Part shown: one piece after another, positions 1 to 23,675 of the stretch | Layout: the number at the start of each line of letters is the position of its first letter | How positions within the stretch are numbered: position 1 is the first letter of the stretch | From: Butyrivibrio proteoclasticus B316 | Lineage (GTDB): Bacteria > Bacillota > Clostridia > Lachnospirales > Lachnospiraceae | Length of the DNA: 64,000 nt | NCBI RefSeq assembly: GCF_000145035.1 | Contig: NC_014387.1 | Coordinates: 1,540,001 to 1,604,000 of the forward strand | Direction: 5' to 3' | The notes under the pieces: model-generated | What the model was told of the DNA's origin: nothing | The model's database searches: none | The model's input: only the letters and a program-made list of their open reading frames with translations | Program-made: the position numbers and the translations under genes

Positions 1-668
<668 letters not shown>

Positions 669-787
669 AAAGAAGGTTAGGAACAAAAGAGGTTAGGATT
701 TAGATTATCAGTGTTCGGTTTTGAAGGTACGATTTGTACAAATTTAAACGAAATTTGAAATATATAAAATACTTATAAATGAAATCT

Positions 788-18787: not shown

Positions 18788-20288
18788 GGGAGAGCCAGGG
18801 AAATTCTATGACAACAGTGACTTTCATGACGTCAGTCCTGTTGATATTCATTCTTTTTCAAGAGAAGATATTCCTACAAAATATGATTCGCGAAATGTAG
18901 ATGGAATAAGCTATATTACTGATGTTGAAGATCAGGGGTATAGCTATTTGTGCTGGACCTATGCTTCTCTTGGCGCAATTGAAAGTGACCTTTTACTTCA
19001 TAATGATGATTTATCAAGAGAATCACTTGATCTTTCTGAGAAGCACCTTGCCTACAGTAATATGCACAAGGCAAGTGGATCAGTAAACGGATACATAGAC
19101 GGAGATTATCGCGAGTTTGTAAACGCAGACAATGAAGAAAACGCATGGATATTTGATTACGATACAAATTATATAGCTTCCGGGGGAGTTGCAGACTTTT
19201 GCATAAGTCTTTTAACCGCCTGGAAAGGCCCTGTTTCAGAGTCTGGAAATGATTCATTTAAGAGTATTTATGGCGAAAAGTTTCTTTTTAAGGATAATTC
19301 TGATGCGCCTTCTGATATTTTTACCAGCGAATATCATGTTCAGAACGTCTGTGAAATTCCGGCTGGGTATGCTAATAACACTATGATCAAGCAGATGATC
19401 ATGGAACATGGTAGCGTTACTGCCGGAGTTTATGCTGATGACCGATTTTGGAAGGGCCATAACTCTACGCTTTATGCTGATTTTGGAGGAAAAGACATAC
19501 CTACAGCAAATCATGAGGCTTTGATAGTAGGATGGGATGATGAATACAGTAAGGAAAATTTTGCAGTAACTCCTAAAGATGACGGAGCCTGGATCTGCAA
19601 GAACAGCTGGGGAGAAATGTCGGGTATTGGAGGATATTTTTATCTGTCCTATTATGACCAGACAACAGGAAGAAATAACGTAGCAGCCTATATTTCTGCT
19701 GTACCGGGTCAGGAAAACTATTATGATAACAATTATCAGGCAGCTGGCTTTCTCACATATGTGGTCAGCACTTTGGAAGATTCGGAGAATTATGTAACAG
19801 CCTATAGTCCTTCTACAAATACCTACGGAATGTTATACCGGGCTGCAGGAGACGAAAATCTAAAGGCAATAGGGCTGATGGGGCTTGAGACATATCAGCA
19901 GTATCAGTTTGATATATATGTCAATCCGGCTAAGGATGGTGATGATATTAACTTTTCGCTTCTGGGAGAGCCTGCCTTATCTATGAAAGGTTCGGCTATA
20001 AGCGGCGGATATCACACCTTTGAACTTGATAAAGATATTCAGCTTAATAAGGACGATGAATTCCTTATTCTGATAAGGCCTGTGACAGCCGGGAGGCTTA
20101 TCTATGAGGCGGCTGTCGATTCTGTGAGTGCACCTAATTACGATGAATGGAAAAATCTTACCGGAAACGTTCATAACTGTTATCAGGCAAGCGGATGCAG
20201 CTATTATGTGGCTGATGATGGAACAGGTGTTACAAGACAGGATGATAAAGATTTCTTTGTTAAGGCTTATACTGTAGACAGAAAATAG
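18744..20288 (+). pseudogene. Papain-like (C1A) cysteine protease with lectin-like domain, lacking its own start
   Basis: This is the body of a clostridial surface cysteine protease of the Cwp84 type. Propeptide-like text ends in IPTKYDSR. The catalytic core has the Cys in SYLCWTYASLGAIE, the His in TANHEALIVGWDDEY, and the Asn in ICKNSWGEMSGIGGYFYLSYYD. After it, about 180 residues (YVVSTLEDSENY onward, with LKAIGLMGLETYQQYQFDIY) resemble the lectin-like domain found in Cwp84-family proteases. The only early initiator in frame is a TTG at 18948, right at the catalytic Cys, which cannot give a working enzyme. The frame therefore depends on the signal-bearing frame 18494-18787. A good terminator follows. 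Confidence 0.8.
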
Positions 20289-20327
20289 AGATAAAAGAGA
20301 AGTAAACGAATAAGAAGGACATAAGAA

Positions 20328-20364
20328 AAAAGAGGCGGCAGCTTTGCCGTCTCTTTGAATTTTT
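20328..20364 (+). terminator. Terminator of the protease gene
   Basis: AGAGGCGGCA pairs with TGCCGTCTCT (one G-T pair) over a GCTT loop, followed by TTTGAATTTTT. The T-tract runs directly into the first copy of the structured element at 20365. Confidence 0.85.
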
Positions 20365-20458
20365 GGGAGGAGGGCTGTTTAATGGGGAGTTAAACAGCCC
20401 AGGTATGAAAAAAGTTTTGTTGGGGGAGTGAGAATTTTTATTCTCACTATATATATCG
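20365..20458 (+). repeat. Structured intergenic element, copy 1 (candidate RNA)
   Basis: Order of parts: GGGAGGA; an 11-bp stem GGGCTGTTTAA/TTAAACAGCCC (20372-20382/20390-20400) with loop TGGGGAG; a conserved core GGTATGAAAAAAGTTTTG then TTGGGGGAG; a second stem GTGAGAAT/ATTCTCAC (20428-20435/20440-20447) with loop TTTT; then TATATATA. Copy 2 at 20999-21095 has the same core and loop with different but still paired stem sequences, which is what a conserved RNA structure looks like. It begins right after a terminator T-tract. The remaining 20459-20616 is AT-rich and holds a promoter. Confidence 0.75.
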
Positions 20459-20559
20459 GTGGAGTGATAAAAAACTTAACAGCATTTAGAATAAAAATTT
20501 AGATAAAAAATAAACGATAATACGCACATAAAATTGTGCAGAAATGTCAGAACGAACGT

Positions 20560-20588
20560 TTGCAAAAATATTAAATGTATGTTATATT
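20560..20588 (+). promoter_or_regulatory. Predicted promoter for the 111-residue protein gene
   Basis: TTGCAA, 17-base spacer, TATATT, about 30 bases before the start codon. Its position downstream of element copy 1 means the element need not be part of this transcript. Confidence 0.5.
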
Positions 20589-20616
20589 GTGTTTGAATTA
20601 AAGAAAGGCACAAGAT

Positions 20617-20952
20617 ATGGCAAAGAATATAAAAGACGTAGATGAAATTAGCACAACAGATAAACTTAAGGCATTTAAATCGCTCAAGGATTCCGGCCTG
20701 AGAGTAGAGTTTAACGGCAGCGGAGTTCCAACAGTAGTATGTGCCAGAGTTGAGGATATTGACAAGGAAATTAAAAATGTCAGAAAGATTCTCAAGGAGC
20801 TCAGATATAATGGCAGCTTTGGCGTAAGAGGACCCAGGAAGACTGATGCGATCCTGACAGAAGGAGAACAGACAAGTTTAGATGAGACTGAACTTACGAT
20901 TGAGGAAGCACCTTCTCTTGAGACAGAGAATACAGAGATATTAACAGCATAA
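20617..20952 (+). CDS. Small hypothetical protein
   Basis: Not recognised. The 111-residue soluble protein has a charged helical N-terminus and a central part that reads like a small alpha/beta unit (LRVEFNGSGVPTVVCARVEDIDKEIKN). A basic GVRGPRK patch and an acidic, Ser/Thr/Glu-rich tail follow. AAAGGCACAAG precedes the ATG, a promoter lies 30 bases further up, and a strong terminator follows, so it is a monocistronic gene. It is enclosed by the two copies of the structured element. Codon use looks like its neighbours. Confidence 0.75.
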   Translation: MAKNIKDVDEISTTDKLKAFKSLKDSGLRVEFNGSGVPTVVCARVEDIDKEIKNVRKILKELRYNGSFGVRGPRKTDAILTEGEQTSLDETELTIEEAPSLETENTEILTA

Positions 20953-20962
20953 TGCATAATAA

Positions 20963-20998
20963 AACCACCTATCGATCACGATGGGTGGTTGTTTTTTT
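20963..20998 (+). terminator. Strong Rho-independent terminator
   Basis: A 12-bp stem AACCACCTATCG/CGATGGGTGGTT with loop ATCA, followed by GTTTTTTT. Element copy 2 starts directly after the T-tract, exactly as copy 1 follows the preceding terminator. Confidence 0.9.
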
Positions 20999-21095
20999 GG
21001 GAGGAGGGGTCGACCAGTGGGGAGCCGATCGACCCGGTATGAAAAAAGTTTTGTTGGGGGAGTCAGAAGTTACTCACTTCTGATAGTATATATAA
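20999..21095 (+). repeat. Structured intergenic element, copy 2 (candidate RNA)
   Basis: Same architecture as copy 1: GGGAGGA; stem GGGTCGA/TCGACCC (21007-21013/21029-21035) with the identical TGGGGAG loop; the same core GGTATGAAAAAAGTTTTG and TTGGGGGAG; second stem TCAGAAGT/ACTTCTGA (21063-21070/21076-21083) with loop TACTC; then AGTATATATA. Both stems differ in sequence from copy 1 yet remain paired. 21096-21308 is AT-rich spacer with a promoter-like site. Confidence 0.75.
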
Positions 21096-21202
21096 TAGTG
21101 TCTAAATTTGGACAAAATATGGACGGTTTATAAATAAAAAATAAAGTAAATCGAAATAATAAATAACTAGCATACGGAATATTGTTAATTTATGAATAAA
21201 TA

Positions 21203-21231
21203 TTTTTCCGATGCACGAAATATTGTATAAT
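21203..21231 (+). promoter_or_regulatory. Predicted promoter for cbiD
   Basis: Perfect -10 TATAAT with a weak -35 TTTTTC at 17 bases, about 75 bases before the chosen cbiD start. No cobalamin riboswitch is evident in the leader. Confidence 0.4.
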
Positions 21232-21308
21232 GAATATGTATATATAATGTTGCACTGGAAATATTAGATACATAATATTGTGGTTTGTTATACATAAAGA
21301 GGCCAAAT

Positions 21309-22514
21309 ATGGATCGATTTACCGTAAAAGATCAGAATAGTTTACTTAGCAGTCCTGTTTCATCAGGAGATTGTATGGCAGCTGCTGCACAGGCTGCAGC
21401 CAGCGATCTTCTATTTAGGATCAGGTTTGAGAATATTATTGTATATCATGGGACTGCCAGCAGAATCTATCCGGTCAAAAGAATAGATGAAAACTGCAAC
21501 ATCAGGCAATCTGAGTATTCCTGTCTTGTGGAAGGAGCGACGCCTCCTGATATAAAGGATAGAGCTGAAATAAGAGTATGTGTTTCATATATCGACGATT
21601 TTACTAAGATAAGCGATAAGGCGCATGTTGATCCCAGATTTGCCAATCTCTTTTTGGATGGAGCAGAAGGCATAGGAACTGCAATGGGCAAAAGACCAGG
21701 ATATCAGGATGGTGAGGCACTTATTGAAAAGCCCGTTAGAGATTCTGTTTTTGAGACTGTTGCCAATGTCTGCGATATTTCTGATGGGGCTCAGCTCCTT
21801 CTCATTAAAGTCAGCTGTCCTGAAGGAATGATGATAGCTGCCGGGAATGTTATGGGACAGACCACATTTACCGGTGGGATCACTATTATGGGAGAGCATG
21901 CTACCATTTCCAAGATCCATCAGAGAGATATTACAGATTCCATAGATTTTCAGATCAAAAAGCAGGTTGATCTTGGCGTATCAAGTGTTCTTGTATCTCC
22001 CGGTAATTACTGCGCTGACAAGATCAATAGTCAGCTTCACGTACCGCTTACTACAGCTGCCCACTGTTATAATTATCCGGGACAGGCTATTGATAGCTGC
22101 GTTTCTTACGGCGTTACCAACATGCTTCTTGTAGGTAATGTAGGTAAACTTATCAAGCTTGCTGCCGGAATTACCAACACTAATTCTTTTGCTTCAGATG
22201 GCAGAAGAGAGATATTTGCAGCGCATACTGCCATAGTTGGAGGGACCTCCAGCCAGGTCAGAACAGTTATGAACTGTCTTACATGTGATGAGATATTAGC
22301 TCTTTTAACAAGCTGGGGAATAAGAGATAGAGTAATGAGCAGTATCATGAATTCAATTGCTGAATACTGCACTATCAGGAGCCGCGGAAGACTTAATCTT
22401 GCTGTTGCGCTATTCTCAGAAGAATTTGGACTATTAGGTGCAACAATTAATACCAAAAATGTTTTAGTTAAGGTGTCACAGGAACAATTTGCATTGTCAC
22501 TTAAGCTAAAATAG
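21309..22514 (+). CDS. cbiD: Cobalt-precorrin-5B C1-methyltransferase CbiD
   Basis: Methylates C1 of cobalt-precorrin-5B in the anaerobic cobalamin pathway. The 401-residue protein has the family hallmarks: an early GDCMAAAAQAA segment, LEDGAEGIGTAMGKRPG-like text (here LDGAEGIGTAMGKRPGY), ISDGAQLLL, and a C-terminal VGNVGKLIKLAAGITNTNS. The ATG at 21309 is chosen over a TTG at 21285 because an AGAGG-like site precedes it. No other cobalamin gene is in the window, so it is separated from the rest of the pathway, or the pathway is incomplete. Confidence 0.9.
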   Translation: MDRFTVKDQNSLLSSPVSSGDCMAAAAQAAASDLLFRIRFENIIVYHGTASRIYPVKRIDENCNIRQSEYSCLVEGATPPDIKDRAEIRVCVSYIDDFTKISDKAHVDPRFANLFLDGAEGIGTAMGKRPGYQDGEALIEKPVRDSVFETVANVCDISDGAQLLLIKVSCPEGMMIAAGNVMGQTTFTGGITIMGEHATISKIHQRDITDSIDFQIKKQVDLGVSSVLVSPGNYCADKINSQLHVPLTTAAHCYNYPGQAIDSCVSYGVTNMLLVGNVGKLIKLAAGITNTNSFASDGRREIFAAHTAIVGGTSSQVRTVMNCLTCDEILALLTSWGIRDRVMSSIMNSIAEYCTIRSRGRLNLAVALFSEEFGLLGATINTKNVLVKVSQEQFALSLKLK

Positions 22515-22552: not shown

Positions 22553-22580
22553 AAATTTGGCTTTAGGAGAAATTTGGGGA

Positions 22581-23675
22581 ATGAGTAAGATTATTTTGAC
22601 TGGAGATCGCCCTACAGGTAAATTACACGTGGGACATTATGTTGGATCACTTCGTAGAAGGGTAGAGCTTCAGAATTCAGGGGAGTTTGACAAAATCTTT
22701 ATTATGATTGCCGACGCTCAGGCGCTTACTGATAATGCTGATAATCCTGAGAAGGTTCGTCAGAATATCATCGAGGTAGCACTTGACTATCTGTCTGTAG
22801 GACTTGATCCTGCCAAGTCTACACTGTTTATTCAGTCACAGATTCCTGAGCTTACAGAGCTTTCATTTTATTACATGAATCTTGTTACTGTTTCAAGACT
22901 TCAGAGAAACCCTACTGTTAAGTCTGAAATTGCAATGAGAAATTTTGAGACAAGTATCCCTGTTGGATTCTTCACATATCCGATCAGCCAGGCTGCGGAT
23001 ATTACTGCATTTAAGGCAACAACTGTTCCTGTAGGCGAGGATCAGGAGCCAATGATCGAGCAGTGTAAGGAGATAGTAAGGAAATTTAATTCTGTATATG
23101 GCGAGGCTCTTGTGGAGCCTGAGATTCTTTTACCTGATAACGCTGCATGTCTCAGACTTCCTGGTATAGATGGTAAGGCCAAGATGAGTAAGTCTCTTGG
23201 TAACTGTATTTATCTGTCTGAGGAACCAGAATCTATCAAGAAGAAGGTTATGAGCATGTTCACAGATCCTAACCATTTAAGAGTTGAGGATCCTGGTCAG
23301 GTTGAGGGCAATCCTGTATTTATTTATCTGGACGCTTTTGCCAAGGATGAGCATTTTGCTGAGTTTGCTCCGGACTATGCTAATCTTCAGGAAATGAAGG
23401 ATCATTACAAGAGAGGCGGTCTTGGTGACGTTAAGGTCAAGAAATTCCTTAACAATGTACTTCAGGCAGAACTTGAACCTATCCGTAACAGGAGAAAAGA
23501 GTTCCAGAAGGATATTCCTTATGTATATGAAGTACTCAGAAAAGGTAGCCAGGTAGCTGAGGAAGTTGCAACCCAGACACTTTCAGATGTCAAGAATGCA
23601 ATGAGAATCAACTATTTTGACGATAAAGAACTTATAGCTATGCAATCTGCAAAGTATGAGGAGAAAAACGACTAA
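22581..23675 (+). CDS. trpS: Tryptophanyl-tRNA synthetase
   Basis: Charges tRNA-Trp. The class I synthetase of 364 residues has the HIGH-like HVGH (16-19, within [15 protein letters not shown]) and the KMSKS loop (about 201-205, [11 protein letters not shown]). The ATG at 22581 has an AGGAG-like site; a TTG at 22557 would add eight residues with no family match. No T-box leader is visible in the 66-base gap upstream. The TAA stop shares one base with the start of glgA, so the two are co-translated, an unusual pairing. Confidence 0.96.

Follow-up and report, generated by a model that had tools for sequence, protein, structure and literature searches.

The window analysed here is a stretch of 64,000 nucleotides of the Butyrivibrio proteoclasticus B316 genome (C1:1540001-1604000). 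The 3' end of a 23S rRNA gene lies at window positions 1-670, a gene encoding a CbiD-domain protein at 21312-22514 and, adjoining the latter, a gene at 22557-23675 that was read by eye as encoding a tryptophanyl-tRNA synthetase. A first-pass annotation had placed two copies of a structured element at 20365-20458 and 20999-21095, and both were found at these positions, with a common GGGAGGA, a hairpin with a TGGGGAG loop, a core, a second hairpin and an AT-rich tail. Read on the minus strand, the two elements resemble two genes, called sRNA A and sRNA B below, of a small RNA (sRNA) family that occurs in Butyrivibrio and some relatives and appears not to have been described. The two transcripts are predicted from their fold z-scores and from matches to the covariance model R1, with inferred ends, and the features of the locus are:

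20322-20448, minus strand: sRNA A (window copy 1), predicted transcript of ~127 nt
20453-20479, minus strand: promoter of sRNA A, sigma-D (flagellar) type; TTAA at 20476-20479, N15, ACCGATAT at 20453-20460
20427-20448, minus strand: hairpin 1 of sRNA A (covariation, fold)
20402-20428, minus strand: core of sRNA A, a 27-mer identical to that of sRNA B (shared word, alignment)
20372-20400, minus strand: hairpin 2 of sRNA A, loop CUCCCCA at 20383-20389 (covariation, fold)
20365-20371, minus strand: unpaired putative anti-Shine-Dalgarno tail UCCUCCC of sRNA A (alignment, fold)
20322-20356, minus strand: intrinsic terminator of sRNA A, hairpin at about 20330-20355, then UUUUCUUA
20617-20952, plus strand: neighbouring gene for a 111-aa protein between the sRNA genes; no Pfam match at E 0.001
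20956-21084, minus strand: sRNA B (window copy 2), predicted transcript of ~129 nt
21092-21124, minus strand: promoter of sRNA B; GTCCAT at 21119-21124, N5, GTCCAA at 21108-21113, N10, -10 box TATTAT at 21092-21097
21063-21083, minus strand: hairpin 1 of sRNA B (covariation, fold)
21036-21062, minus strand: unpaired core CUCCCCCAACAAAACUUUUUUCAUACC of sRNA B (alignment, fold)
21007-21035, minus strand: hairpin 2 of sRNA B, 11 bp, loop CUCCCCA at 21018-21024 (covariation)
20999-21006, minus strand: unpaired putative anti-Shine-Dalgarno tail CUCCUCCC of sRNA B (alignment, fold)
20956-20990, minus strand: intrinsic terminator of sRNA B, hairpin at 20963-20990, U-rich tract at 20956-20964

The terminator of sRNA B can also be used by the plus-strand gene of the 111-aa protein.

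The 27-mer common to both copies, GGTATGAAAAAAGTTTTGTTGGGGGAG, occupies 20402-20428 and 21036-21062, and the chance expectation for sharing it was a mean of 0.00 in 100 shuffles. R1 matched sRNA A at 20361-20447 (minus strand, 98.5 bits) and sRNA B at 20996-21084 (minus strand, 107.7 bits), both copies having belonged to its training set. The only other R1 match in this genome was a third copy, paralogue C (C1:2055959-2056048, 84.7 bits), with the core AAUACUUUUUUUCAUACAC. It is flanked by a gene for a 152-aa protein without a Pfam match and a GGDEF-EAL gene (L109:907-2950), and a flagellin-domain gene lies close by. The covariance-model search of Lachnospiraceae genomes that the first-pass annotation had called for yielded many further copies: R1 matched in 72 of the 79 genomes of the genus, including 45 of the 47 of good quality, mostly with 2-4 matches per genome. 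A 24-base core pattern run against genome contigs recovered 75 stretches, all from Butyrivibrio. Where a locus held two copies, B preceded A in the direction of the sRNAs in 23 of 23 cases, at a distance of 535-675 bases in 22 of these loci and 1624 in one. The view that the element belongs to no known RNA family held against Rfam: no family matched it in the whole window at gathering scores, and all 11 hits in 20200-21300 at E up to 10 fell far under the gathering score of their family. In 27 related loci searched at gathering scores, the only matches were to tRNAs (two) and, at the end of a locus, to part of a DUF3800-I RNA, all outside the elements.

The alignment of the family comprised 79 rows (78 distinct sequences), with L043 and L073 omitted as lying at contig ends and L060 omitted on account of its replaced hairpin 2. 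Of its 1451 cells, 97.7% held a standard pair, and two-sided changes occurred in 15 of the 19 pairs. None of 500 shuffles attained the observed pairing, which fell to 32-47% when the partner columns were slid by 1-3 positions. Hairpin 2 had two-sided changes in 10 of 11 pairs and 99.4% of its cells paired. The paired changes first seen between the stems of the two window copies are thus real and extend far past these copies, and the proposal that selection acts on RNA structure is borne out by covariation in both hairpins. The core CUCCCCCAACAAAACUUUUUUCAUACC was near-invariant across the 79 rows, an invariance that arises partly by selection of the sample, the loci having been recovered with a pattern derived from the core. 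The C-rich and CAU stretches were unpaired in the folds of sRNAs A and B. In paralogue C, the CAU was engaged in long-range pairing in the minimum free energy structure and unpaired in the centroid.

Hairpin 2 also discriminates between the strands. Its wobble-type exceptions in the family alignment were 69 G-U against 1 A-C on the minus-strand reading, and the 69 G-U would become 69 A-C mismatches if the plus strand were read. Hairpin 1 was strand-neutral (15 G-U, 15 A-C), and hairpin 2 of six distant matches, described below, had no strand preference (2 G-U, 3 A-C). Fold z-scores against shuffles were -7.40 for the minus strand of sRNA A (20310-20448), -6.39 for that of sRNA B (20950-21085) and -6.1 for the paralogue C transcript; the plus strand of the B region scored -3.15, weaker than the minus-strand transcripts. 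Promoters were conserved at the proper distance on the minus strand. Of the 101 copies collected, four were dropped for insufficient flank; in the other 97, a scripted scan called a terminator on the sRNA strand in 90 and on the opposite one in 63. These 101 copies come from the window, one G207 locus and the 75 stretches, and at least one locus entered twice (L003 lies within L040). They follow a common minus-strand plan: the promoter is followed by hairpin 1 and CUCCCCCAACAAAACUUUUUUCAUACC, then comes hairpin 2, whose loop reads for instance CUCCCCA or UUCCCCA, and CUCCUCCC and the terminator close the element; L060 departs from this plan, with hairpin 2 and tail replaced and promoter, hairpin 1 and core intact.

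The plus-strand reading of the first-pass annotation is therefore reversed by the wobble asymmetry, the conserved promoters, the terminators and the fold z-scores, and both copies are almost certainly minus-strand sRNAs. Strand, structure, covariation, family relation and the architecture of promoter and terminator all come directly from the computation. Two other observations of that annotation take on a different meaning on the minus strand. A terminator hairpin does precede each copy, as had been noticed, but the same hairpin is a terminator on the other strand too: many of these terminators are bidirectional, which explains why, from the plus strand, the element seems to follow immediately on a terminator. 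Likewise, the AT-rich TATATA stretch is present, but it is the conserved minus-strand promoter region and not a tail. The denial that the element is simply a 5' UTR was upheld.

The promoters are of two types. The sRNA A promoter has the sigma-D-type form by comparison both with the B. subtilis-type consensus and with flagellin genes of its own genome. The sigma-D consensus of B. subtilis is of the TAAA/TTAA-N15-GCCGATAT type, and TTAA-N15-NCCGATAT was found in 25 of 29 distinct type A promoters. A wider sigma-D pattern, picked after inspecting the 4 misses of the TTAA-N15 form, fitted 29 of 29 type A promoters and 0 of 69 type B promoters. Of the six flagellin-domain loci of this genome, L174 and L175 carry a promoter of this kind before the gene (TTAA-N15-GCCGATA and TAAA-N16-GCCGATA, respectively), and none of their own was seen at the other four. 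The first -10 base is A in the sRNA A promoter and G in the flagellin promoters. Within this genome the exact type A pattern is unique to sRNA A, the flagellin promoters matching a looser form only. A divergent TTAA-N16-GCCGATAT promoter, not that of a flagellin, lies beside L174. In the sections of PMC7438776 drawn on here, no consensus letters for the clostridial sigma-D were found. Taken by its promoter, sRNA A very probably stands under sigma-D-type control.

Type B promoters carry two half-sites 11 bp apart, ten bases ahead of the -10 box. The pattern was scored as two GTMMMW half-sites separated by N5, with TANNAT a further N9-N11 on, in promoter sets from which duplicates and promoters with less than 75 bases of flank were omitted. 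At least 13 of its 16 positions were matched in 68 of 69 distinct type B promoters, all with N10, and all 16 in 42 of 69; at the same threshold, the controls gave 2 of 29 type A promoters and 128 of 1380 shuffles. Self-similarity at lag 11 was 0.578 in B promoters (0.285-0.385 at other lags) and 0.393 in A promoters (0.320-0.384 at other lags). In 27 promoters from other genera, some of them near-duplicates and not all independent, it reached 0.411, with 0.303 in shuffles, none of the 2000 attaining the observed value, and 0.256-0.336 at other lags; L206 and L210, which did not match the orientation rule, were left out of this set. Direct half-sites repeated at 11 bp are the layout of OmpR-family regulators, and OmpR-type control of sRNA B appears likely from this arrangement. 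The promoter of paralogue C was read by eye only. When 3 mismatches were allowed, the B operator GTCCATANTTTGTCCANANT had 19 sites genome-wide, fewer than the 33 of its reversed control, and hence no regulon can be read from this search. A Pho-box reading for sRNA B was also considered. In four related genomes, pstS was preceded by TTTACA-N5-TTTACA in three and by one exact TTTACA in the fourth (L189), whereas the sRNA promoters of these genomes carry TTCACA-type repeats, clear in L180, L182 and L184 and weaker in L181. In the genome of the window, TIGR02136 gave no match and its own Pho box was not seen. With the sRNA and pstS boxes differing in the related genomes, a phosphate regulator is not indicated, although one may still act on sRNA B.

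We infer that the transcripts are expressed from these promoters, under the regulators suggested above, and pair with messages. In the proposed mechanism, the paralogous genes of a trans-acting, base-pairing Lachnospiraceae sRNA family would be transcribed from the minus strand. Copy A would be activated by the flagellar sigma factor; copy B, and perhaps paralogue C, would be activated by a response regulator of the OmpR family that occupies the 11-bp direct repeats standing in for the -35 box. Each RNA would expose three C-rich stretches able to act as anti-Shine-Dalgarno: the linker has CUCCCCC, the loop of hairpin 2 has CUCCCCA, and (C)UCCUCCC stands ahead of the terminator. A further exposed stretch, CUUUUUUCAU, would act as anti-start, its complement being AUGAAAAAAG. 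Within the core CUCCCCCAACAAAACUUUUUUCAUACC, the C-rich part could serve as anti-Shine-Dalgarno, CAU as anti-start and UUUUUU as the complement of two lysine codons. An anti-AUG followed, past hairpin 2, by an anti-Shine-Dalgarno is the right order to cover a Met-Lys-Lys initiation region; hairpin 2 would be looped out when the RNA pairs with the message, and pairing would block ribosome entry.

Complements of seven of eight words taken from the C-rich and CAU stretches were 5.5- to 18-fold enriched around 320 predicted starts (genes predicted from 464 kb of this genome), an enrichment that is partly built in, as the start caller demanded a Shine-Dalgarno match and favoured ATG. It is also expected of any sRNA directed against initiation regions and is thus not proof. 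The eighth word, AAAAAAGTT, had 0 of its 18 occurrences at starts, with 0.34 expected over the same 320 genes. The preference of the tail CUCCUCCC for initiation regions, -2.78, exceeded that of all 20 shuffles (mean -1.51, sd 0.34, lowest -2.17), and that of the core, -2.37 kcal/mol, fell within its 20 shuffled cores (mean -1.76, sd 0.46, lowest -2.69). The AUG was covered in only 10 of the 30 top core duplexes, and the top core duplexes among the 320 predicted genes did not converge on one function. With one mismatch allowed, GGTATGAAAAAAG occurred 25 times in the genome, two of them the sRNA genes, against 19 for a control, and is hardly commoner. Among the loci with a start resembling GGTATGAAAAAAG are L163, for a patatin-like protein, L167, for a regulator of the ROK family, and L171, for an NlpC/P60-PcsB-like protein whose start resembles a signal peptide; we note these as leads only. 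Pairing with the Shine-Dalgarno and AUG of messages, in the manner of csRNAs and LhrC, is probable in our judgement.

Relatives of the family were found outside the genus. Across 397 genomes of the family Lachnospiraceae, R1 matched in seven, five of them outside Butyrivibrio. Six matches from these five genomes were added to rebuild the model as R2, which matched 50 of the 397 genomes, 48 of them outside the genus, and 43 of 334 genera in all. Five of the 48 had supplied training sequences, and at the E 0.01 used about four genomes are expected by chance if the E-values hold, which are rough and, by the tool's own warning, may be off by a factor of five. In a control search of 391 genomes of the class, 4 that lie outside the family had a weak R2 match, about what chance gives at E 0.01 over 391 genomes, and on reading these matches were unlike the family. 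In 27 of 29 loci read from other genera, a C, the U run, CAU and then a C-rich stretch were kept while the other parts drift. The neighbours of the first six distant matches were unrelated genes, except for those shared by L181 and L183, which are of one genus; unrelated neighbours are expected of free-standing sRNAs. Four genomes outside Butyrivibrio (G321, G132, G046 and G361) had 4-6 R2 matches each. A distinct subfamily in other genera (L187, L205, L207, L208, L211, L212, L215 and L216) has a hairpin like GTTTCAAGT..ACTTGAAA, then AAAGCTTTTTCATACTCATACC, a hairpin and CCCCC(C); most of these loci have one more hairpin, for example GTTATCCGAAAGGATAAC, immediately upstream. In L024 and L072, the C-rich tail apparently doubles as the terminator's 5' arm (L024 reads CTCCTCCATTAATGGGGGATTTTTTT), an arrangement that would couple termination to hiding of the anti-Shine-Dalgarno.

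The first-pass annotation had suggested, as speculation, that a plus-strand RNA titrates CsrA through exposed GGA motifs, and the plus strand does contain GGAGGA, GGGGA and GGGGGA, one of them in a loop. These motifs fall on the non-transcribed strand, however: the wobble polarity of hairpin 2 is 69:1 for the minus strand, where promoters and terminators are conserved, the plus-strand fold is the weaker one, and the distance from the upstream terminator to GGGAGG leaves no space for a plus-strand promoter. The unpaired motifs of the minus strand being CUCCUCCC, CUCCCCA and CUCCCCC and not GGA, CsrA titration loses its basis, and we regard it as very improbable. The same lack of promoter room speaks against a short plus-strand leader peptide, MKKVLLGE from ATGAAAAAAGTTTTGTTGGGGGAG, whose frame is open in both window copies. 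In paralogue C that frame is shifted by an additional T within the T run, and conservation runs on through the hairpins and non-coding positions, leaving this reading with practically no weight.

A DNA element without an RNA product, such as an operator, an insertion-site repeat or a MITE-like repeat, could account for inverted repeats, fixed spacing and two copies about 600 bp apart. It is a highly improbable reading, given that R1 has just three matches in this genome, that the B-A arrangement is fixed in all 23 two-copy loci, that the hairpin 2 exceptions are G-U and not A-C, and that the copies have their own terminators. A transposon-derived repeat, which had been named as an outcome that would refute the structured RNA, is opposed by the absence of matches in plasmid (both copies), phage (copy B) and viral-contig collections, the last with 0 matches to a 21-base core pattern. 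A minus-strand sRNA whose main ligand is a protein, for instance an RNA chaperone or a ribosome-associated factor binding the 27-nt core, is unlikely. Loose mRNA pairing would not need a core as invariant as this one (among loci found by the core pattern), the core-TIR energies are no better than those of shuffled cores, and a protein site was also considered for the conserved nonamer of the csRNAs in the part of PMC3091779 used here. Against this, the U run with CAU and the C-rich parts persist in distant relatives while the rest drifts, and such persistence is also the signature of sRNAs directed against initiation regions. Taken as a whole, the best explanation of the locus is a pair of minus-strand anti-initiation sRNAs, A under sigma-D and B under OmpR-type control, to which we assign a probability of about 0.8.

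Lachnospiraceae are among the main butyrate formers of the gut and rumen. The sRNAs could form a family-wide RNA hub on which motility and envelope sensing converge as one translational brake, a tentative idea that we hold to be possible and somewhat doubtful. If it were true, the near-identical sRNAs would read Shine-Dalgarno plus AUG-AAA-AAA and could silence many Met-Lys-Lys messages, which often encode secreted and cell-envelope proteins; they would receive parallel inputs, A from the flagellar sigma factor and B and C from a stress regulator of the OmpR type, and the system would stand beside csRNA and LhrC as their independent counterpart. With readable inputs (a flagellar sigma factor and an OmpR-type regulator) and an output code of Shine-Dalgarno plus AUG-AAA-AAA, post-transcriptional control in Lachnospiraceae would become directly testable. 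Among the matches listed in a search of the open-licence literature, there was no paper on Lachnospiraceae sRNAs or on this family.

CsrA sponges of the CsrB/RsmZ type carry repeated short loop motifs. Repeated loop motifs are found here as well, but the motif of the predicted transcribed (minus) strand is CCU-rich and not GGA. Rfam includes LhrC, and no match to it arose in 20200-21300 at E up to 10. According to the sections of PMC4132741 drawn on here, LhrC1-5 of Listeria monocytogenes are multicopy sRNAs under two-component system control that bind a Shine-Dalgarno region and whose loops and single-stranded stretch hold three redundant motifs of the CUCCC type. Three C-rich motifs are likewise present in our family, two with UCCCC and one CUCCUCCC, all unpaired, in company with an anti-AUG segment that is prominent here and sets the family apart from LhrC. 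The same sections describe UCCC motifs of RsaE, FsrA and other C-rich sRNAs of low-GC Gram-positives as pairing with the Shine-Dalgarno; the sRNAs described here also have UCCC motifs, a likeness drawn in outline only, and the window had no Rfam match to them.

The streptococcal csRNAs, as presented in the sections of PMC3091779 used, are CiaR-controlled sRNAs with several paralogues per genome, a promoter of the form TTTAAG-N5-TTTAAG-N10-TATAAT and a conserved nonamer, [A/C]UCCUAAA[A/C], after the first stem-loop, for which the authors weighed a protein site; CiaRH is apparently absent outside streptococci. Our family resembles them in its multiple paralogues, its intrinsic terminator, the unpaired anti-Shine-Dalgarno and CAU beside stem-loops (an unpaired anti-Shine-Dalgarno and anti-AUG do lie between stem-loops here), and its 6-bp half-sites N5 apart and N10 from the -10 box, the csRNA regulator being of the OmpR family. 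It differs in half-sites that are GTMCAW-like and not TTTAAG, the geometry alone fitting 68 of 69 type B promoters, and in lacking the UCCUAAA nonamer, in whose place the alignment reads CUCCCCCAAC. An extra hairpin stands between the anti-start and the last anti-Shine-Dalgarno, one paralogue has a sigma-D-type promoter, and the bacterial family is another. As the operator sequence, the nonamer and the Rfam models are not matched, we file the family neither as csRNA nor as LhrC; it appears to be an independent case of the csRNA/LhrC design.
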